Assembly: GCF_011297335.1 (NCBI RefSeq)
Contig: NZ_JAAOTJ010000009.1
Coordinates: 62,001-126,000, forward strand
Length of the DNA stretch: 64,000 nucleotides
Direction: 5' to 3'
Source: Catellatospora methionotrophica
GTDB taxonomy: Bacteria; Actinomycetota; Actinomycetes; Mycobacteriales; Micromonosporaceae
A model generated the notes under the pieces. That model had not been told where the DNA came from, ran no database searches, and was given only the letters and a program-made list of their open reading frames with translations. Each line of letters begins with the position of its first letter. Positions within the stretch are counted from its first letter, which is position 1. The position numbers and the translations under genes were made by a program. Shown here one piece after another: positions 43,209 through 53,973 of the stretch.

Positions 43209-45136
<1,928 letters not shown>

Positions 45137-45137
<1 letters not shown>

Positions 45138-46039
45138 TGGCGTTCCTGCCGTCCTGGCGGCCGGGAGCCGCGCGCGACGCGATCACGTCGTTCCTCGACG
45201 AGTCCCTGGCACTGCCCGCCGACCAGCGGGTCGCCGTGCTCGACAACGACGGCACCCTGTGGTGCGAGAAACCGAACTACACCCAGTACGACTTCCTCGT
45301 ACGCACCCTGCACGCCGCCGCCGAGCAGGACGGCAGCCTCGGCGACCGGCCCGAGTACCGGGCGCTGCTCGACGGCGACCGGGCCGCGCTCGGCGAACTG
45401 GGCCTACAGCGCATCGCGATGGCCCTGCTGGAGCTCTGCGCGGGCTGGACACCCGACGACTTCGCCGCCCGCGTACGCGACTTCATGGCGTCCGAGAAGC
45501 ATCCCGGCCGGGGCGCGCCGTACCCGAAGATGGTCTACCAGCCGATGCTGGAGCTGCTGGAGGCGCTGCGCGGGCACGGCTTCGACGTCTTCATCGTCAC
45601 CGGCGGCGGCACCGAGTTCGTGCGCGCGGTCAGCCGCGACCTCTACGGCGTACGCCCCGACGACGTCGTCGGCACGCTCGTCGAGTACCACTACGAGGCT
45701 CGCGAGGCCGGTCCGGCGCTGGTGCGCACCGCGTTCGCGCACGGCGAGGTCAACGAGGGCCCGGCGAAGGTCGAGCACATCCAGACCCAGCTCGGCCGCC
45801 GCCCGATCTTCGCCGCCGGCAACTCCGCCGGCGACAGGGAGATGCTGGAGTACGCCCGCACCGCCGGCACGCCCAGCCTGGCCCTGCTCGTCGACCACGA
45901 CGACGCCGAACGGGAGTACGCGTACGCCTCCGCCGCGGTGACCATGAAGGACACCGAGCCGATCACCGCCGTGGCAGGGCGGCTCGGCTGGACGGTCGTG
46001 TCCATGCGCGACGACTGGTCGGTGGTCTTCCCGGCGTGA
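45137..46039 (+). CDS. HAD-superfamily phosphatase-like hydrolase
   Basis: Cytoplasmic HAD hydrolase of 300 aa. Motif I is VLDNDGTLWCEKP (nucleophile Asp in DNDGT). The helical cap spans about 60-130. Motif II is FIVTGGGTEFVR, and the later motifs include the Lys in GPAKVEHIQ and the acidic GNSAGDREML. It resembles the PSP-like subgroup often annotated haloacid dehalogenase. The substrate is probably a small phosphate ester. The ATG overlaps the sulfatase TGA by one base, so the two are translationally coupled; a shared role in releasing sulfate and phosphate from one substrate is possible but unproven. Confidence 0.88.
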
Positions 46040-46045
46040 GCCTGG

Positions 46046-46069
46046 CTAGGGTCGGAGCACCGACCCTAG
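46046..46069. promoter_or_regulatory. Perfect palindrome CTAGGGTCGG-N4-CCGACCCTAG
   Basis: Exact 10-bp arms around AGCA fill most of the 40-bp gap between the HAD gene and the amidohydrolase, ending 10 nt before its ATG. The right arm merges into the AGGAG ribosome binding site (46068-46072). It could be an operator or a hairpin that hides the ribosome binding site. Confidence 0.5.
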
Positions 46070-46079
46070 GAGCCCTGGC

Positions 46080-47324
46080 ATGGCGTACGACCTGCTGCTG
46101 ACCGGCGGACACGTGATCGACCCGGACGGCGGCGTCGACGGGATCGCCGACGTGGCGGTGACCGGTGGCCGGATCGCCGCCGTCGGGACCGGCCTGGCCC
46201 GCGAGAACGCCCGTGAACTGGTCGACGCACGCGGTCGGCTGGTCACTCCCGGCCTGGTCGACCTGCACACGCACGTGTTTCCCGGCGCGACCTACTGGGG
46301 CATCGACCCCGGCCCGGCCGCCTGGTGCTCCGGGGTCACCACCTGGGTCGACGCGGGCTCCGCCGGGGCGTACGGGCTGGACGCGCTGCGCGCCGCCGTG
46401 AACGGCTACCGGGTGCGGGTGCCGGTGCTGCTCAACATCTCCGCGGTCGGGCTGACCGGGCTCACCGGGGAGTCCCGCGACCTCGCCGCGTGCGACGTCG
46501 ACCTGGCCGTCACCACCATCGCCGCGAACCGTGACCTGGTGTACGGGATCAAGGCCCGGATCGACGCCAACACGGTCGGGGCGAACGGGCTGGAGCCGCT
46601 ACGCCGGGCGATCACCGTCGCCCGTGCCTGCGAGCTGCCGGTGATGGTCCACATCGGGCTCGCGCCGCCCGCGATCGGCGAACTGCTACCGCTGCTCGGG
46701 GCCGGTGACATCGTCACGCACTGCGCCAGCGGCATCGCCCTGGGCCGGGGCGGCCTCGATCCGGCCCTGCGCCGCGCGTACGACGCCGGGGTCCTGTTCG
46801 ACCTGGGACACGGCTCGGGCGGCTTCGCGTACGACGTGCTGGAGGCGCAACTCGCGGCAGGGATGCCGCCGCACACGGTCTCCACCGACCTGCACGCGCG
46901 CTCGCTGCACGGCCCGGCGTTCGACCTGCCGACCACGATGGCCAAGCTGCTCGCCGTCGGCGTGCCGCTGGCCACGGTCGTCGCCTCGGCCACGATCGCC
47001 CCGGCTCGCGCGCTCGGCCTGTCCGGCGGCACACTGCGTGTCGGCGCACCGGCGGACGTGGCCGTGTTCGCGCTGGAGGAGGGCGGTTTTCCGCTGGCCG
47101 ACGTACACGGGCAGCTGCGGACCGCACCACTGCGGCTGCGCAACGAGGCCACGTACGTCGCCGGGCGGCTGCTGCCACCGAGCCTGCCCGCCCCGCCACC
47201 GCCCTGGGTGCCGCTCACCACAGCCCAGCGCGACGCGCTCGCCCACCGCTCGCGCCTGGTCCGGGACCTGCTCACCACACCCCTGGTCACCCCCGGCGGC
47301 CTCGACGAGCAGTTCCCGCGATGA
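46080..47324 (+). CDS. Amidohydrolase/deacetylase-family metallohydrolase
   Basis: Amidohydrolase-superfamily enzyme of 414 aa, dihydroorotase-like branch. The metal motif HxH is in LVDLHTHVFPG, the bridging Lys probably in YGIKARIDANTVG, later His in PVMVHIGLAPP and IVTHCASG, and the catalytic Asp in VSTDLHARSLHG. This arrangement matches the family of Atu3266/EF0837-type deacetylases acting on small N- or O-acyl compounds; true dihydroorotase activity is unlikely. AGGAG lies 7 nt before the ATG. It follows the sulfatase-HAD pair on the same strand after a 40-bp gap holding a perfect palindrome. Confidence 0.85.
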   Translation: MAYDLLLTGGHVIDPDGGVDGIADVAVTGGRIAAVGTGLARENARELVDARGRLVTPGLVDLHTHVFPGATYWGIDPGPAAWCSGVTTWVDAGSAGAYGLDALRAAVNGYRVRVPVLLNISAVGLTGLTGESRDLAACDVDLAVTTIAANRDLVYGIKARIDANTVGANGLEPLRRAITVARACELPVMVHIGLAPPAIGELLPLLGAGDIVTHCASGIALGRGGLDPALRRAYDAGVLFDLGHGSGGFAYDVLEAQLAAGMPPHTVSTDLHARSLHGPAFDLPTTMAKLLAVGVPLATVVASATIAPARALGLSGGTLRVGAPADVAVFALEEGGFPLADVHGQLRTAPLRLRNEATYVAGRLLPPSLPAPPPPWVPLTTAQRDALAHRSRLVRDLLTTPLVTPGGLDEQFPR

Positions 47325-47341
47325 CCGCTCCACGCGGGTAA

Positions 47342-47381
47342 TGGATGAGTTGTGATCGTCGGGACGACCACAACTCATCCA
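47342..47381. terminator. Hairpin related to family 2 (copy 3, decayed)
   Basis: TGGATGAGTTGTGATCGTC (47342-47360) pairs with 47363-47381 with one mismatch and a 2-nt loop. The TGGATGAGTT...AACTCATCCAGAT core matches the arms of the element at 16493-16553, and a remnant AGGCGGT follows at 47391-47397. It lies between convergent genes. Confidence 0.6.
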
Positions 47382-47412
47382 GATCGGGACAGGCGGTGCA
47401 AGCGGGGCTCGG

Positions 47413-47874
47413 TCAGCGCGGCGTCGCCGGGGTGCCGGAGGCGGCGCCGCAGATGGCGATCATCTGGTCGGAGAGCGCGTCGATGCGCGCGACGTCGAGC
47501 TTCTGCAGCGAGTTCATGTCGGTCAGGCTCTTGCCCTGCGACTCGAACTCGTCGGCGAGCTGGCCGAGCGTGGTCTTGACGTCCGTGGCGTCCGCGGTCG
47601 ACGCATCGGTGCGCAGGTTCGCGGCGAGGTCCACCAGCTCGCCGCCCGCCGCCTTCACGGACTGGTTGGCGGCCGTCATGTTGCCCGCGTCGGCGGCAGC
47701 GGTGACCTTGGACAGCTCCTTGGCGAAGTCGCTGAGGCCGTCCTCGACCGTCTTGGCGGTCTTGGTGCAGACCTGTGGCGTGGGCTCGGCCGCCGCCGCG
47801 GGCAGCGCGCCGAAACCGATTGCGGCGAGGAAGGTGGTGGAGAGGATGCAGGCTGCGCGTGAGAGGCGTCGCAT
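47413..47874 (-). CDS. Small secreted helical protein, unknown function
   Basis: Exported protein of 153 aa. An N-terminal signal peptide (MRRLSRAACILSTTFLAAIG ... ALPAAAAEP) precedes a mature part of about 120 residues that is Ala/Lys/Asp-rich and predicted helical. The two cysteines, in QVCTKTAKTVED near the start and IAICGAA near the end, could form a disulfide that closes a helix bundle. I recognise no family. ATG 47874 is chosen because GGAGG lies 5 nt before it. It is isolated, convergent with the amidohydrolase gene. Confidence 0.8.
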   Translation of the reverse strand: MRRLSRAACILSTTFLAAIGFGALPAAAAEPTPQVCTKTAKTVEDGLSDFAKELSKVTAAADAGNMTAANQSVKAAGGELVDLAANLRTDASTADATDVKTTLGQLADEFESQGKSLTDMNSLQKLDVARIDALSDQMIAICGAASGTPATPR

Positions 47875-48035
47875 GACGTCCTCCAATCGGGGCCGCGGGC
47901 CCGGCTGGGAGAGCCGGCCCAAGATGACCATCTTCATCCCGCGCCGACCCGTTCCGGGCGAACTCGGCCAAGCCCACGTGGGGAGCCACCTGACCACGTA
48001 TCATCACGACGCCGGTCACGCGTTTGCTGTCGCTG

Positions 48036-49136
48036 CTAGGCGCTCTCGCCCAGCAGGCTCCGCACCGCATGTCGGATGGCGTCGGCGTGAAGGTAGATGT
48101 CGTCCATTGACTCGATCAGATGACGGGTCTCGGTCTTGTTCGCGTCGAAGGTGCCGAGGTACTTCCGCGCCTTGCCGTTGAAATGCAATCGTGCAATGGG
48201 CTTGCGGTTGTTGTCGTCGAGAAGCACAGCGAAGTACGACTTGGCATCACGGCACACCACCCGTTGCGGCTTCACCTCGATACACGCGATCGCCTTGACG
48301 ATCTGGTATCCGGTGAGCTCTTCGAGAGTGGTCTCCACCTCGGTGTCGCGGCTGACGTCGCTCAACGCCACATCCTCGCTGTCGAGGACCTCGGCGGGGG
48401 CGCCGGCCTGCTTGGGGATGTTCGTGTAAAGGGCACTCTTCAGCCGCTCGTTCACCTGATCCCGTACGAACTGCGTTGCTGCTTTGGCGACGAGTGCCCG
48501 AAACTGCTCACGTACCTTCTGCGTGAACATTCCGTCGTAGGCCCTGGTCGTGAAGAACTTCACCCAGTCGTCCTCGGGTTCCCTGAACTGTGCGGCCATC
48601 TCGCGCTTGATCTGACCGAGATACTTCAGCTCCTCAGCCGCGCTGATGATGGAGTCGAGATCGAAGGCCTCTTTCGTGAGTTTGCGCAGCTCGGGCAGCA
48701 GTGCCTCGTCCACGTCGTCGAGGTCCAGCACCAGGAACGGCTTGGCATCCATCTTGTTGGGGGCGTCGAGGTCGGTGTAGAAGTGGTAGACCTGCCCATT
48801 GGTGAGCAGGGCGATCCGCGCGTTCGTCACGGCGAAGTACCGGTAGAGCTGTGAGGCGTGTTCGATTCTGAGCGCATCCCGCGGCTGCTTGCACTCGATG
48901 AGGATCTGGACCTCGCCGTTACGCATGATCGCGTAGTCGACTTTCTCGCCCTTCTTGATCCCCACATCGGCGATGTACTCGGGCACGACCTCCATCGGGT
49001 CGAACACGTCGTAGCCGAGGATCAAGGAGATGAAGGGCATGATGAAGGCGTTCTTGGCGGCTTCCTCGGTCAGAATGACGTCCCGCTGATTTCGCACCTT
49101 CTCGGCGAGCGCGGCGACTCTTGCCTCAAACTCCAT
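48036..49136 (-). CDS. Solitary HsdR N-terminal-type PD-(D/E)xK nuclease
   Basis: Protein of 366 aa with an HSDR_N restriction-type domain in its first half. The PD-(D/E)xK core is visible as Asp67 (KVDYAIM) and Glu81-Cys-Lys83 (LIECKQPRDALR), followed by SQLYRYFAVTNARIALLTNGQ as in type I restriction subunits and related proteins. There is no helicase domain and no modification gene nearby. The C-terminal half (about 190-366) is of unknown fold. Base composition is clearly lower in GC than neighbours, suggesting transfer. It may be a stand-alone defence nuclease. ATG 49136 has AAAGGAG upstream; the GTG at 49145 sits too close to that site. A -10-like TAGCAT lies at 49171-49176. Confidence 0.85.
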   Translation of the reverse strand: MEFEARVAALAEKVRNQRDVILTEEAAKNAFIMPFISLILGYDVFDPMEVVPEYIADVGIKKGEKVDYAIMRNGEVQILIECKQPRDALRIEHASQLYRYFAVTNARIALLTNGQVYHFYTDLDAPNKMDAKPFLVLDLDDVDEALLPELRKLTKEAFDLDSIISAAEELKYLGQIKREMAAQFREPEDDWVKFFTTRAYDGMFTQKVREQFRALVAKAATQFVRDQVNERLKSALYTNIPKQAGAPAEVLDSEDVALSDVSRDTEVETTLEELTGYQIVKAIACIEVKPQRVVCRDAKSYFAVLLDDNNRKPIARLHFNGKARKYLGTFDANKTETRHLIESMDDIYLHADAIRHAVRSLLGESA

Positions 49137-49344
49137 AAAGCACACTCCTTTGTGAACCAGGCGTACCGGGATGCTACCTAGTGATCGAGTAGCGCAAAGC
49201 GGCGAAACCGGCCGAGTTGATCCTCCTTTCGTCGGCTCGGAACGACGGAAAGGCGTGATCGTGCTGCCTCGATCGCGCTGCGATGGGTGCGGGGTGCCGG
49301 AGAGGCTGGGCTCTGCTCGGGAGGCGGGATGTCAGGTGGGGGCT

Positions 49345-49350
49345 TAGGCT
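49345..49350 (+). promoter_or_regulatory. Leaderless -10 (TAGGCT)
   Basis: TAGGCT ends 6 nt before the GTG at 49357; no ribosome binding site is present. Confidence 0.5.
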
Positions 49351-49356
49351 CCTGCG

Positions 49357-50532
49357 GTGCGTTGGCGTTCCTGTGTCGCGGTCGTTGCCGGTGCCCTGAT
49401 GGCGGTCTTGCCTGCGGGGTGCGGGTCGGAGGTGCCCGAGGGGCCGCAGGGCAACTGGGTGGAGGCTGGGCCGAGTGCCGCGCCGCCGTCCGCGTCGGCG
49501 GCTCCGAGTGCGGCTCCCTCGTCGCCCGCGCCGGCCGCGTTCGTGACGGGCAACCCCAAGGGGCGGGCCGCCGTGCCCGCCGAGGCCAAGGCTGTGGACA
49601 CCTCGCGGCCGACCCGCAAGATCGGCAACGGTACGCCCGCTAGCTGCACCTCCAAAGCGGTGGTCGCCGCCGTCGCGGCGGGTGGGGTCATCACGTTCGA
49701 CTGCGGGCCGCATCCGCTGACGATCACCATGGCCGCCACCGCGAAGGTGAAGAACGCGAACGGGCCGAAGATCGTGCTCGACGGCGGCGGGAAGATCACC
49801 CTCAGTGGCGGCGGCAAGCGGCGCATCCTCTACATGAACACGTGTGACAAGGCGCAGGGCTGGACCACCTCACACTGCCAGGACCAGGATCACCCGCAGT
49901 TGACGGTGCAGAACCTGACCTTCGCCGACGGCAACTCGACCGGCGAGACCGGCGAGGGCGGCGGTGGCGGGGCGATCTTCGTACGCGGCGGGCGGCTCAA
50001 GGTGGTCAACGCGCGCTTCGTCCGCAACCGGTGCGACGACACCGGCCCTGATCTCGGCGGGGCGGCGATCCGGGTGCTCAGCCAGTCCAAGGGCCTGCCG
50101 GTGTACATCGTGAACAGCACCTTCGGCGGCGGCAAGGGACTGGGCGGCCGGTGCTCCAACGGCGGGGCGCTGAGCAGCATCGGCGTCTCGTGGGTGGTGC
50201 TCAACAGCGTGCTCACCCACAACAGCGCGATCGGCAGCGGCGCGAACCCGGCCCGCGCGGGCAAGCCCGGCGGCGGCAGCGGTGGGGCGATCTACACCGA
50301 CGGCAACCTGTTCACGGTGCGCATCGCGGGCTCGATCGTCACCGACAACCATGCCGAGGAGGGCGGCGGCGCGGTCTTCTTCGTCAGCAACGACCGCACC
50401 GGCACGATGACGATCGAGAGCTCCACCCTGCAGCGCAACCCCAGCGACGGCTTCGAGACCCAGGGCTTGCCCGGCATCTTCTTCCTCGGCGCCCGCAACC
50501 CCACCCTCAAGTCCTCCACCCTGCGCAGGTAG
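49357..50532 (+). CDS. Right-handed beta-helix probable lipoprotein
   Basis: Exported protein of 391 aa. The N-terminal MRWRSCVAVVAGALMAVLPAGC is a likely lipoprotein signal with Cys22 as the lipidated residue (Pro at -3 is atypical). An Ala/Pro/Ser-rich linker (23-75) follows, then a parallel beta-helix made of repeated turns such as LTVQNLTFADGN, LKVVNARFVRNR, YIVNSTFGGG, VVLNSVLTHNSA and VRIAGSIVTDNHAEEGGG. This is the layout of polymorphic outer-surface and pectate-lyase-like proteins; no catalytic residues are recognised, so binding or an enzymatic role on polysaccharide is open. The GTG at 49357 is fixed by TAGGCT 6 nt upstream. Confidence 0.85.
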   Translation: MRWRSCVAVVAGALMAVLPAGCGSEVPEGPQGNWVEAGPSAAPPSASAAPSAAPSSPAPAAFVTGNPKGRAAVPAEAKAVDTSRPTRKIGNGTPASCTSKAVVAAVAAGGVITFDCGPHPLTITMAATAKVKNANGPKIVLDGGGKITLSGGGKRRILYMNTCDKAQGWTTSHCQDQDHPQLTVQNLTFADGNSTGETGEGGGGGAIFVRGGRLKVVNARFVRNRCDDTGPDLGGAAIRVLSQSKGLPVYIVNSTFGGGKGLGGRCSNGGALSSIGVSWVVLNSVLTHNSAIGSGANPARAGKPGGGSGGAIYTDGNLFTVRIAGSIVTDNHAEEGGGAVFFVSNDRTGTMTIESSTLQRNPSDGFETQGLPGIFFLGARNPTLKSSTLRR

Positions 50533-50563
50533 GTCCGAGCAGCAGGCGGCTGGGGCGCTCGGC

Positions 50564-51754
50564 TCAGGTGGTGACGGGTGCGGCAGTGGCGGGGTGGGGT
50601 GCGCGGGGGCGCAGGGAGGTCGCCGCCGCGGCGACGAACAGGGCCAGCACCGCAGGGATGGTGAGGGCGGCGGGCAGGCCGATCAGTTCGGCGAGTGCGC
50701 CGATCGCCAGCGGGCCGACGACGAAGCCGAGGAAGCCGAGGCTGGCGACGCGCGCGATGGCCTGGCCCGCCCGCGCGGGGTCCTGGCCGCCGGCGGTGGA
50801 GAAGACCTGGGGGGCGATACAGGCCAGGCCCGCGCCGAGCAGGCCGAATCCGGCGACTCCGGCGACCGGGTGCCCGATGAGCAGCGCCGTGCCGAGGCCG
50901 AGGGCGGCGAGCACGCCGCTGTAGCGGACCAGGCGGACCGGGCCCAGGGTGGCGGTGAGCCGGTCGCCGACCATCCGGCCGGCCATCATCATGATCGAGA
51001 AGGCGGCGTACGCGGCAGCGGCGAAGCCCGGCGTGCTGCCGAGGCTGTCGTGCAGGTAGACGCTGCTCCAGTCGGCCGCCGCGCCCTCGCCGACCAGGCA
51101 GCAGAACACCAGCACCCCGAGGAACGTCACGCCCGGCAGCCCGCCCCGGCCCGCACCGGTCTCCGCCACGGGGACAGCCGACGGGGCGAGCCGCCAGCGC
51201 GCCGCCACCGGTGCGATCACCGCCACGACCGCGGCCACTGTGAGGAAGGTGGCTGCCGCGCTGAGCCCGGCGTACGCGCACAGCCCGCCGACGGCCGCCC
51301 CGAGGAAGCCGCCGACGCTGTACACGGCGTGGAACGAGGACATGATCGGCGCCTGCCAGGCCCGCTGCACCTCGACGGCGGCGGTGTTCATGGTGATGTT
51401 GAGCAGTCCGTGGGTGATGCCGAAGGCCAGCAGGCAACCGGCGAGCACGATCAGGTTCGGGGCCAGCGCGGGGGAGACCAGCAGCAGGCCGTCGGCGAGC
51501 GCCACGGGCAGCAGCAGCCGGTACGTGCCGTACCGGTCGACCAGCCGTCCCGCGGCCTGCATGCCGATGATCGCCCCGGCAGCGAAGGCCAGCAGCCCGA
51601 GGCTGAGCGCCCCGTCGGTGAGCGACAGGTCCTGCTTGATCGCCGGGATGCGGGTGGTCCAGGTGCCGAGGATCACGCCGTACAGCCCGAACAGCAGGCA
51701 GACGGCCAGCCGGGCACGGCGGGGCAGGACGTGGTCGTGCGGTGACGAGGTCAA
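50564..51754 (-). CDS. MFS transporter
   Basis: Major facilitator of 396 aa with twelve predicted helices. Helix 1 and its loop read LAVCLLFGLYGVILGTWTTRIPAIKQDL, and the loop between helices 2 and 3 is GRLVDRYGTYR. FGITHGLLNITMNTAAVEV in helix 4 resembles the FucP/YbjJ-like carriers. Cargo is unknown. The start is taken as TTG 51754 with GGAGCG about 8 nt upstream; a later GTG is possible. It is divergent from the epimerase gene with a 211-bp gap. Confidence 0.87.
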   Translation of the reverse strand: MTSSPHDHVLPRRARLAVCLLFGLYGVILGTWTTRIPAIKQDLSLTDGALSLGLLAFAAGAIIGMQAAGRLVDRYGTYRLLLPVALADGLLLVSPALAPNLIVLAGCLLAFGITHGLLNITMNTAAVEVQRAWQAPIMSSFHAVYSVGGFLGAAVGGLCAYAGLSAAATFLTVAAVVAVIAPVAARWRLAPSAVPVAETGAGRGGLPGVTFLGVLVFCCLVGEGAAADWSSVYLHDSLGSTPGFAAAAYAAFSIMMMAGRMVGDRLTATLGPVRLVRYSGVLAALGLGTALLIGHPVAGVAGFGLLGAGLACIAPQVFSTAGGQDPARAGQAIARVASLGFLGFVVGPLAIGALAELIGLPAALTIPAVLALFVAAAATSLRPRAPHPATAAPVTT

Positions 51755-51965
51755 GGCTGGCGCTCCGGGGGGTGTGGCAGACCTCTGCGGGGACGAACAT
51801 CATGAATGTATGCGCAGTCCGCCCGCCCCGCAGCCCGGCCGGGTCCACGCCTGAGCCTGTATGCTGCGCAGTGCCCTGGCCAGGCTCTGGGTTCGAGCGG
51901 CGTGCCCGCTCACGGCCGGCCGGGAGCTGATCCGTGCCGGTCGAGAACTGCGGGAGCCGAGAATC

Positions 51966-52859
51966 ATGTCGAACGAGACGCTGCTGGTCACCGGTGGTGC
52001 CGGCTTCGTGGGCACACACCTCATCCGGGCGCTGCTGGACACGCGCCCGACCGCGCGGATCGTGTCCGTCGACAACTACTTCACGGGCCGCCACGACAAC
52101 GAGATCGTCGACGAGCGGGTGACGTACCTAGACGGGTCGACGGTCGACATCTTCAAGATCTGGGCCGAGCACGGCTACGAGGCCCCGAAGATGGTGTTCC
52201 ACCTGGGGGAGTACGCCCGGATCGTGCAGTCGTTCGACGAGTTCGACCGCACCTGGGAGTACAACACCCACGGGACCAAGGAGGTCATCCGCTTCGCCGC
52301 CCAGCACGGCGCGCGGCTGGTCTACTCGGCGTCCAGCTCGAAGTTCGGCAACGAGGGCAAGGACGAGCACCTCAACCCGTACGCCTGGACCAAGGCCAAG
52401 AACGTCGAGCTGATCAAGAACTACGGCGAGTGGTACGGCCTCGACTACGTCATCACGTACTTCTACAACGCGTACGGCCCGGGGCAGATCAGCGCGGGCA
52501 CCTACGCGACCGTGCTCGGCATCTTCGAGCGGCAGTACCTGGCCGGTGAGCCGCTGACCGTGGTGTCCCCGGGCACCCAGACCCGCGACTTCACCCACAT
52601 CTCGGACATCATCTCGGGCATCCTGGTCTCCGCCGAGGGCGGCAAGGGCGACGGCTACCTGCTCGGCAACGGCCGCGAGTGGGAGCTGACCGAGGTCGCC
52701 AAGCTGTTCGGCACCGAGTACGTCCTGATCCCGGCCAAGCGCGGCGAGCGCACCCACGGCCGCGCCGACAACTCCAAGGTCCGCGACCTCGGCTGGGAGC
52801 CCAAGGTCGCCCTGGACGCCTACATCGCCGACTTCGTCCGCGACAACCCGCGCCCCTGA
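51966..52859 (+). CDS. NAD-dependent epimerase/dehydratase (NDP-sugar type)
   Basis: Extended SDR of 297 aa. The dinucleotide motif is TGGAGFVGT near the N-terminus, the catalytic Ser/Thr region is LVYSASSSKFGN, and the catalytic Tyr-x3-Lys is in NPYAWTKAKN. VSPGTQTRDFTHISDI is typical of UDP-glucose 4-epimerase and dTDP-glucose 4,6-dehydratase relatives. It is shorter than GalE (about 330 aa). Product is probably an activated sugar for surface glycans, but specificity is not determined. ATG 51966 is selected because the fold starts there and GGGAG lies upstream; a longer frame from 51861 is improbable. Confidence 0.88.
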   Translation: MSNETLLVTGGAGFVGTHLIRALLDTRPTARIVSVDNYFTGRHDNEIVDERVTYLDGSTVDIFKIWAEHGYEAPKMVFHLGEYARIVQSFDEFDRTWEYNTHGTKEVIRFAAQHGARLVYSASSSKFGNEGKDEHLNPYAWTKAKNVELIKNYGEWYGLDYVITYFYNAYGPGQISAGTYATVLGIFERQYLAGEPLTVVSPGTQTRDFTHISDIISGILVSAEGGKGDGYLLGNGREWELTEVAKLFGTEYVLIPAKRGERTHGRADNSKVRDLGWEPKVALDAYIADFVRDNPRP

Positions 52860-52867
52860 CCTGTCTG

Positions 52868-52933
52868 CCCGCTGTTTCGGGGAAAGCGCAGCCTTCCGGA
52901 CGTGGATGGCTGCGGTTTCCCCGAACCAGCGGG
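52868..52933. terminator. Long hairpin between convergent genes (26-bp arms, 2 mismatches)
   Basis: CCCGCTGTTTCGGGGAAA... (52868-52893) pairs with 52908-52933, leaving a 14-nt loop. It starts 8 bp after the epimerase stop and touches the stop of the regulator gene on the other strand, so it probably terminates both. CGCTGTTTC recalls family 1, but the rest does not align. Confidence 0.65.
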
Positions 52934-52934
52934 G

Positions 52935-53882
52935 TCAGATCCAGCCGCGACGCGCGGCGATGGCCCCGGCCTGGAAGCGGTTGGCGGCGCCCAGGAGTTC
53001 GTAGAGGCGGCTGATGCGGCGGCGCATGGTGCGCACTGACCAGTCGAGCTGGCGGGCGACGGCCTCGTCCTTCAGGCCGCTGACCAGCAGGGTGAGCAGG
53101 GCGCGGTCCTCCTCGGAGACCGGGTCCTCGACCGGGGCGAGCAGGGGCACGGCCGCGCGCCAGCACATCTCCCAGTAGTCGATGAGCCCGTCGAGCAGCG
53201 TGGACGGGCGGATGACGGCGGCCCTGACCTCGGACAGGTCCAGGGACAGCGGCATCAGGGCGATGCGGCGGTCGGCGATGGCGAGTTTGATGCGCAGGCC
53301 GGGTAGCACGCGGGCCTGCTCGCCGTGGCTGATCAGCTCGCGGATGTCGTCGAGGACGCCGGGCCACTCCAGGGCCTCGGGGGCGTACACGGCGCGGTAG
53401 TGCACGCCGCGCGCGATGCCGGTCTGCTCGATCGGGTTCGACGTGGTCAGCGCGTACGGCGGCCGGTCCAGGGTGATGACCTCCTCGCGGGCCTCCTGCT
53501 GGATCTGGACGAACCACCGGCCCAGCGCCTCGCTGCCGGTGACGATCTCGATCTCCTCGCCGGTGCCGGAGTTCGCGGCGGCGAACAGCAGTGCGAGCTG
53601 CCCGGCCGCCGCCTGGACCTGGTCCAGTTCGGCCGAACGGGCGCGGACCAGGGCGGCGACGGCGGCCTGCGGTTCGATCGCGGCATAGCGGCGGCGGTTG
53701 CCCGCCAGCCGCCCGACCAGACCGTGGTCGCGCAGCCGGTCCAGGGCGCGGGCGACCCGATCGGACGAGCAGCCGAGTTCCTCGGCCAGGTCGCCGGGGG
53801 CGGCGGTGCGGCGGACGAGAATGGCCCGGTAGACGGCCTCGTCGAAGGGGTCGACACCGGCGGGGGTGAGGTCGGAGGGCAT
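52935..53882 (-). CDS. Transcriptional regulator with TrmB-like N-terminus and LuxR-type HTH
   Basis: DNA-binding protein of 315 aa with two HTH elements. An N-terminal winged helix (about 10-75, FDEAVYRAILVRRTAAPGDLAEELG) is of TrmB type. The centre (about 90-235) resembles a phospholipase-D-like sensor fold found in such regulators. A C-terminal LuxR-type HTH (about 245-310) reads EEDRALLTLLVSGLKDEAVARQLDWSVRTMRRRISRLYELLG. Proteins with this layout are common in actinomycetes and mostly unstudied. ATG 53882 gives the expected N-terminus. It is divergent from the subtilase gene (91-bp gap), which it might control. Confidence 0.85.
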   Translation of the reverse strand: MPSDLTPAGVDPFDEAVYRAILVRRTAAPGDLAEELGCSSDRVARALDRLRDHGLVGRLAGNRRRYAAIEPQAAVAALVRARSAELDQVQAAAGQLALLFAAANSGTGEEIEIVTGSEALGRWFVQIQQEAREEVITLDRPPYALTTSNPIEQTGIARGVHYRAVYAPEALEWPGVLDDIRELISHGEQARVLPGLRIKLAIADRRIALMPLSLDLSEVRAAVIRPSTLLDGLIDYWEMCWRAAVPLLAPVEDPVSEEDRALLTLLVSGLKDEAVARQLDWSVRTMRRRISRLYELLGAANRFQAGAIAARRGWI

Positions 53883-53973
53883 AAGCCGATCTTGGCCTAA
53901 CAGTGCCACCGGCAGCAACGGGCCAGCGGAGATCATTGCGCCGAACAGCCGATGACCGTTAGACCGCTTAGCT

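Follow-up and report, generated by a model that had tools for sequence, protein, structure and literature searches.

The window (the whole stretch of 64,000 nucleotides of Catellatospora methionotrophica DNA that was analysed) contains a solitary nuclease gene (Table 1), which moves as a lone cassette and which, on balance, appears to be a mobile single-gene defence of prophage type acting against other phages. The gene is inserted alone, between ordinary chromosomal genes, at a site that is empty in all ten sister genomes examined, and its family is a widespread one which temperate phages often have next to the repressor gene; it is thus probably a one-gene phage defence. As judged by profile matching, the 366-residue product is a full-length member of phrog_4225 ('endonuclease' in PHROGs v4), residues 1–360 aligning with positions 2–353 of 357 (E 2.2e-119), and the same family is matched by 52/52 aligned relatives.

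Domain organization of the nuclease

Table 1. Features of the nuclease gene, its product and the inserted segment (positions in the window).
Feature	Position	Strand	Basis or remark
Nuclease gene	48036..49136	(-)	ATG start, 366 aa, stop counted in
Shine-Dalgarno-like AAAGGAG	49145..49151	(-)	Sequence; 9-15 nt 5' of ATG
Promoter-like conserved block	49170..49195	(-)	About 34-59 nt 5' of ATG; recurs 5' of relatives
PD-(D/E)xK nuclease domain, HsdR type, residues 1-166	48639..49136	(-)	Pfam, fold match
Nuclease-domain residues	D67 48936-48938, E81 48894-48896, K83 48888-48890, Q96 48849-48851	(-)	
Residues 167-260, long helices and disordered stretch	48357..48638	(-)	AlphaFold2
Residues 263-366, helix-five strands-helix domain	48039..48350	(-)	AlphaFold2
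Smallest inserted segment missing from sisters	48023..49316		Flank spacing, 10/10 genomes

The gene is present as a single copy in its own genome (8.39 Mb, 56 contigs). The conserved upstream block reads GCGCTACTCGATCACTAGGTAGCATC on the coding strand and recurs, in altered form, 5' of relatives in other Micromonosporaceae genera, the simplest reading of this putative element being a promoter.

The protein has an N-terminal PD-(D/E)xK nuclease fold with a conserved active site and matches, in its first third, HSDR_N (PF04313; E 3.8e-11) and HSDR_N_2 (E 5e-07), the only Pfam families above cut-off. No Pfam family covers the C-terminal 104 residues, no helicase domain is found by Pfam or in the AlphaFold2 model, and no NCBIfam family scores above cut-off for the 366-residue protein. 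D67, E81 and K83 are invariant in 52/52 aligned proteins, the invariance being an unbiased observation for E81 and K83 only, as the relatives were found partly by patterns that include D67. Sequence relatives in the PDB were found neither with the single protein (top E ≥0.056, unrelated) nor with a profile, and BFVD yielded one match at E ≤0.001 (E 4.5e-08), a phage protein named type I restriction enzyme R protein N-terminal domain.

The AlphaFold2 model, built with 52 aligned proteins, has a mean pLDDT of 90.8 and a pTM of 0.61, with helices at residues 160–185, 189–199 and 206–238 and low pLDDT at residues 240–249; the C-terminal domain modelled alone reaches a pLDDT of 89.6 and a pTM of 0.83. 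As modelled, the helical middle part is probably involved in dimerisation, while the C-terminal domain probably binds DNA or a trigger. The best structural match of the nuclease domain is DrdV (Z 12.1, 139 residues, rmsd 3.4), followed by the HsdR fragment 3h1t (Z 11.1, 125 residues, rmsd 3.7), BsaXI (Z 9.7, 123 residues, rmsd 2.8) and BpuSI (Z 9.5, 138 residues, rmsd 3.7). The domain also resembles NucC (Z 5.5–5.9) and SduA (Z 6.5), which, together with the prophage position of the family, would suit an abortive-infection nuclease that destroys host DNA upon a phage trigger. However, the Z scores for NucC and SduA are of a size that the tool classes as unspecific, those of DrdV and HsdR are much higher, and no signal-making partner gene occurs in 80 loci, so that an abortive-infection role is very unlikely.

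The top match of the C-terminal domain is the C-terminal domain of T4 MotA, both when modelled alone (Z 6.3, 82 residues, rmsd 3.5) and from the whole-protein model (Z 6.6, 84 residues, rmsd 3.5), the Z score being below the trust level of the tool (8) and level with that of the unrelated CapZ (6.1). The suggestion of the preliminary description that the C-terminal part could sense the trigger is thus a guess with a single weak structural lead. The mitoribosomal and CapZ rows obtained for this domain with VIA-align were judged to be common arrangements, and Foldseek returned no match at E 0.001 for the domain alone. The C-terminal domain was also sought apart from the nuclease. Its profile matches 3/246 genomes of the phylum (the gene itself, L213 and L212); of the two matches examined, the gene itself contains the nuclease, and L213 looks like a member of the family truncated at the end of its contig.

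Solitary position and insertion site

The preliminary description had placed a lower-GC frame beside genes of higher GC, and the measured composition bears this out, as the gene has a GC content of 60.3% vs 72.1% for the whole window, where it is the lowest-GC stretch, and lies at z −4.6 relative to non-overlapping 1101-bp stretches of the window (mean 72.3%, minimum 66.3%). The same description took this composition to indicate foreign origin, an argument that does not hold as stated. The GC content of the gene is below that of its flanks in 80/80 actinobacterial loci examined (by 9.8 points on average, and by more than 5 points in 75/80), so that low GC is a family trait and no proof of recent import; the import reading is also opposed by a quick gene tree, in which the copy stays within Micromonosporaceae. 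As compared with 8 neighbouring genes measured, the gap is greatest at codon position 2 (0.34 vs 0.42–0.59) and smaller at codon position 3 (0.84 vs 0.92–0.98), and the low GC thus reflects largely the make-up of the protein.

The neighbours are metabolic, and the gene lies outside any defence island here. A sulfatase, a HAD hydrolase, an amidohydrolase and an ORF without assignment lie on one side, and an ORF without assignment, an MFS transporter, an epimerase and a regulator on the other; no restriction, methylase or phage gene is found among these 8 neighbouring ORFs tested (43209–53894). The description of an HsdR_N nuclease standing alone, without helicase, methylase or specificity genes, thus agrees with both Pfam and the neighbouring ORFs. 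A conserved partner is likewise lacking, as no ORF family within 4 kb is common to more than three genera among 80 actinobacterial loci; the search covered plain six-frame ORFs of 80 aa or more, and shorter partners would escape it. An intergenic palindrome at 47341–47382 (GGATGAGTTGTGATCGTC and its near complement) is a REP-like repeat that occurs at one more site in the same genome (contig C15) and also in several of the sister genomes.

The same genome contains a type I-like restriction locus on another contig (C23:165281-172929), with HSDR_N in a 1087-aa frame and two frames matching N6_Mtase. It is therefore improbable that the solitary gene is an HsdR which a split system has lost. The C23 locus would offer a partner if the solitary protein were a spare nuclease part acting in trans with the type I system of the genome, yet this locus has its own long HsdR frame, the solitary protein contains no motor, and neither hsdM nor hsdS accompanies its gene in 80 loci, which renders such a role highly improbable.

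When 10 further genomes of the genus were searched for the 7.8-kb neighbourhood, the site proved to be empty in 10/10, the flanks being too close to each other to accommodate the gene. The distance between window positions 48004 and 49318 is 27 bp in G004, that between 48008 and 49318 is 45 bp in G002, and that between 48022 and 49317 is 149 bp in G005, while the aligned flanks are 132–243 bp apart in the remaining seven genomes. The smallest insert deduced from this spacing is about 1.3 kb and consists of the gene with about 180 bp on its 5' side, which include the promoter-like block, and about 15 bp on its 3' side. The empty-site gaps of G005, G010 and G003 (L199, L200 and L202) share another inverted repeat (..CGACTTGCCCGGCAACCGG..), and the insertion thus fell in a repeat-prone spacer. 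The small gene on the left of the insert (47412–47931; L203–L207) is inverted relative to the right flank in 5/10 sisters (G006, G001, G008, G007 and G009).

Two of the sisters encode relatives at other loci, with identities of 83% (G010) and 76% (G009). These two loci have in common only the gene, about 70 bp upstream of it and some short repeats, none longer than 53 bp, and the similarity of the insert in the window to either of them is confined to the gene and no more than about 50 bp upstream. G009 seemingly contains two copies; a duplication was rejected, as the contigs concerned overlap, at a contig end, over 9660 bases with 100% identity, and the second copy is thus assembly redundancy. 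In G010 the nuclease gene lies 3' to an acyl-CoA dehydrogenase gene (L208:6300-6600). The end of this dehydrogenase gene is matched over 44 bp in G009, at a point 5' of the nuclease gene (L210:9650-9860); G/C tracts occur at both loci.

A lone gene with its upstream block placed between other genes, 10/10 empty sister sites and a nuclease with a possible DNA-binding domain could also describe a selfish, free-standing homing-like endonuclease, which inserts beside its target without benefit to the host. A homing nuclease, however, is expected at one conserved target, and the gene occupies three loci in the three genomes of the genus that carry it, no target-site duplication is recognised at the insert, and the family recurs beside repressor genes, so that a homing nuclease is quite unlikely here; in E. 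coli, the 5 loci opened do represent a single locus.

Distribution, phage carriage and proposed function

Among 300 genomes of Micromonosporaceae, 31 match at E 0.001, of which 22 contain full-length relatives, distributed over 9 genera, and 9 contain weak matches only (<35 bits). Three loci of the family agree without difference, over long stretches, with Micromonospora and Plantactinospora records, in keeping with the family being Micromonosporaceae. The preliminary description had proposed a solitary, mobile and patchy candidate, to be checked by presence or absence at this locus, with stand-alone relatives in many genomes and on phages, and its expectations are borne out by a lone insert lacking from all ten sister sites, by a gene found in 3/11 genomes of the genus (its own genome counted in) and in 22/300 of the family, and by relatives that cover 80% or more of the query in 18 of 50,697 phage records. 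Among named genomes, 384 relatives were confirmed, and the reading frame is broken in one (L030) of the best 80, which were retained. In a quick tree of 87 proteins, in which 32/84 inner branches are open, copies group mostly by host family, the window copy falling in a Micromonosporaceae group (100%) and Glycomyces, placed inside Nocardiopsis, being one of the exceptions. Movement is thus mainly within families, and this mostly host-bound grouping of sequences would suggest slower turnover than many defence genes show.

The family is common elsewhere. One allele occurs in 186/5426 E. coli genomes, always on the chromosome; the 5 loci opened (L225–L229) have the gene between hicAB and aldB, and one copy is cut by IS2. 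Matches occur in 44 plasmid records, 20 of them from Borreliella or Borrelia; the Borreliella matches listed cover only the N-terminal 54–63%, and one is named a DUF5655 domain protein. At least 431 viral contigs were confirmed in IMG/VR, the best 80 of which were retained, and a tyrosine integrase is encoded in 32 of the 48 contigs searched from these 80.

Ten of the phage records were opened, and in 8/10 the gene has a repressor or regulator gene on one side and an integrase on the other. In these eight records the repressor or transcriptional regulator is just upstream on the same strand as the nuclease gene, sometimes with an ImmA-type protease or a small ORF in between, the integrase follows downstream, directly or some genes later, and the nuclease gene is thus on the lysogeny side, with the replication genes reading the opposite way. 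One of the remaining records has no product names, and in the other (Porphyromonas phage, L174) the gene is beside hicAB, among morphogenesis genes; the hicAB toxin-antitoxin genes thus adjoin the nuclease gene both here and in E. coli (5/5 loci). In the 48 IMG/VR contigs, a same-strand HTH_3 gene lies at most 1.5 kb upstream in 14, compared with 1.2 expected and a maximum of 6 in 5000 random placements (9/41 after clustering at 90% identity), this neighbour being absent by the same test in 34/48. An integrase within 6 kb, a weak signal, is found in 13/43 records of at least 30 kb, the count leaving out 5/48 records that are each shorter than 30 kb.

Frequent carriage on phages, and also on plasmids, and the PHROGs category of the family (DNA, RNA and nucleotide metabolism) are what one would see if the enzyme were a phage or plasmid nuclease of DNA metabolism (replication, recombination or breakdown of host DNA) stranded on chromosomes. 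This reading, which we regard as unlikely, is opposed by the place of the gene with the repressor and away from the opposite-strand replication genes in those 8/10 records, and by free chromosomal copies that are still open frames with an invariant active site.

In the favoured reading of a phage defence, the nuclease would be made from its own promoter, without a methylase protecting the host, the helical middle would make it a dimer, and the C-terminal α/β domain would bind DNA or another trigger. This reading draws on the HSDR_N domain with its invariant active site, the restriction-enzyme folds among the top structural matches, the empty sister sites, the patchy distribution, the lack of a shared partner and the frequent place beside repressor and integrase genes. 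Counting against it are the metabolic neighbours, the weak PADLOC-DB matches, the viral contigs without an HTH_3 neighbour or a nearby integrase, the phage record with morphogenesis genes and the mostly host-bound tree. A classical restriction enzyme without its methylase is expected to harm each new host. Since no methylase accompanies the gene, host DNA would have to lack the feature that the nuclease targets, or the nuclease would have to be silent until a phage signal arrives; such a feature could be a base modification or an unusual DNA structure. Phage or plasmid DNA entering the cell would then be cut, and the DNA of other phages would be attacked either once a trigger has been received or by a type IV-like restriction directed at DNA that is marked or aberrant. 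The nuclease defence is perhaps type IV-like in character. A more specific and rather unlikely version is that of a complete, NTPase-free type IV-like system in one 366-aa polypeptide, where a PD-(D/E)xK nuclease is joined to a double-wing domain reading modified phage DNA in a MotA-like manner, and which phages of distant bacterial phyla would carry beside the repressor gene and express in lysogens. If the defence reading is true, lysogens of the repressor-adjacent carriers should restrict other phages by means of a single gene.

Comparison with known systems

No protein listed in PADLOC-DB 2.0.0 is convincingly matched over most of its length. The best hit is REase_MTase_IIG (E 1.2e-05), which covers 104 residues of a 1011-position model and concerns the nuclease part only, and weak matches of the nuclease domain are likewise obtained for 28/52 relatives. 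COG2810 bears the name 'predicted type IV restriction endonuclease', and a mycobacteriophage reportedly encodes a restriction system of a single subunit. No experimental study of a phrog_4225-type nuclease was found in the literature searched, and the excerpts of PMC6426596, PMC11514479 and PMC9122126 contain nothing on this nuclease family. According to excerpts of PMC8713573, the phage-resistant Campylobacter jejuni CAMSA2038 contains an HsdR_N gene (DDV75_03095, about 348 aa from the printed coordinates) which is absent from the sensitive strain, the likeness to the present gene being one of description and not of sequence; its authors, in the same excerpts, call the role of DDV75_03095 unclear, McrBC having been tested instead.

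The protein differs in no structural respect from phrog_4225, while the copy in the window stands alone in the chromosome with no visible prophage. It has in common with HsdR (EcoR124I, and the Vibrio vulnificus fragment 3h1t) the PD-(D/E)xK domain (Pfam HSDR_N), and differs in having no helicase motor, no HsdM or HsdS, and a C-terminal domain of its own. As both the SF2 helicase/translocase motor and the hsdM/hsdS partners are lacking, it is not an HsdR subunit, and automatic annotation as 'type I restriction endonuclease' is given to a protein without the parts of a type I enzyme. The type IIG enzymes DrdV, BsaXI and BpuSI have similar nuclease domains, whereas the 366-aa protein contains neither their methylase nor their target-recognition part. 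The C-terminal domain has a weak likeness to the double-wing DNA-binding domain of T4 MotA, a transcription factor whose C-terminal domain accommodates glucosylated DNA. Type IV restriction enzymes work without a cognate methylase; here, too, no methylase gene lies among the 8 ORFs tested beside the gene in the window, and none is shared across the 80 actinobacterial loci.
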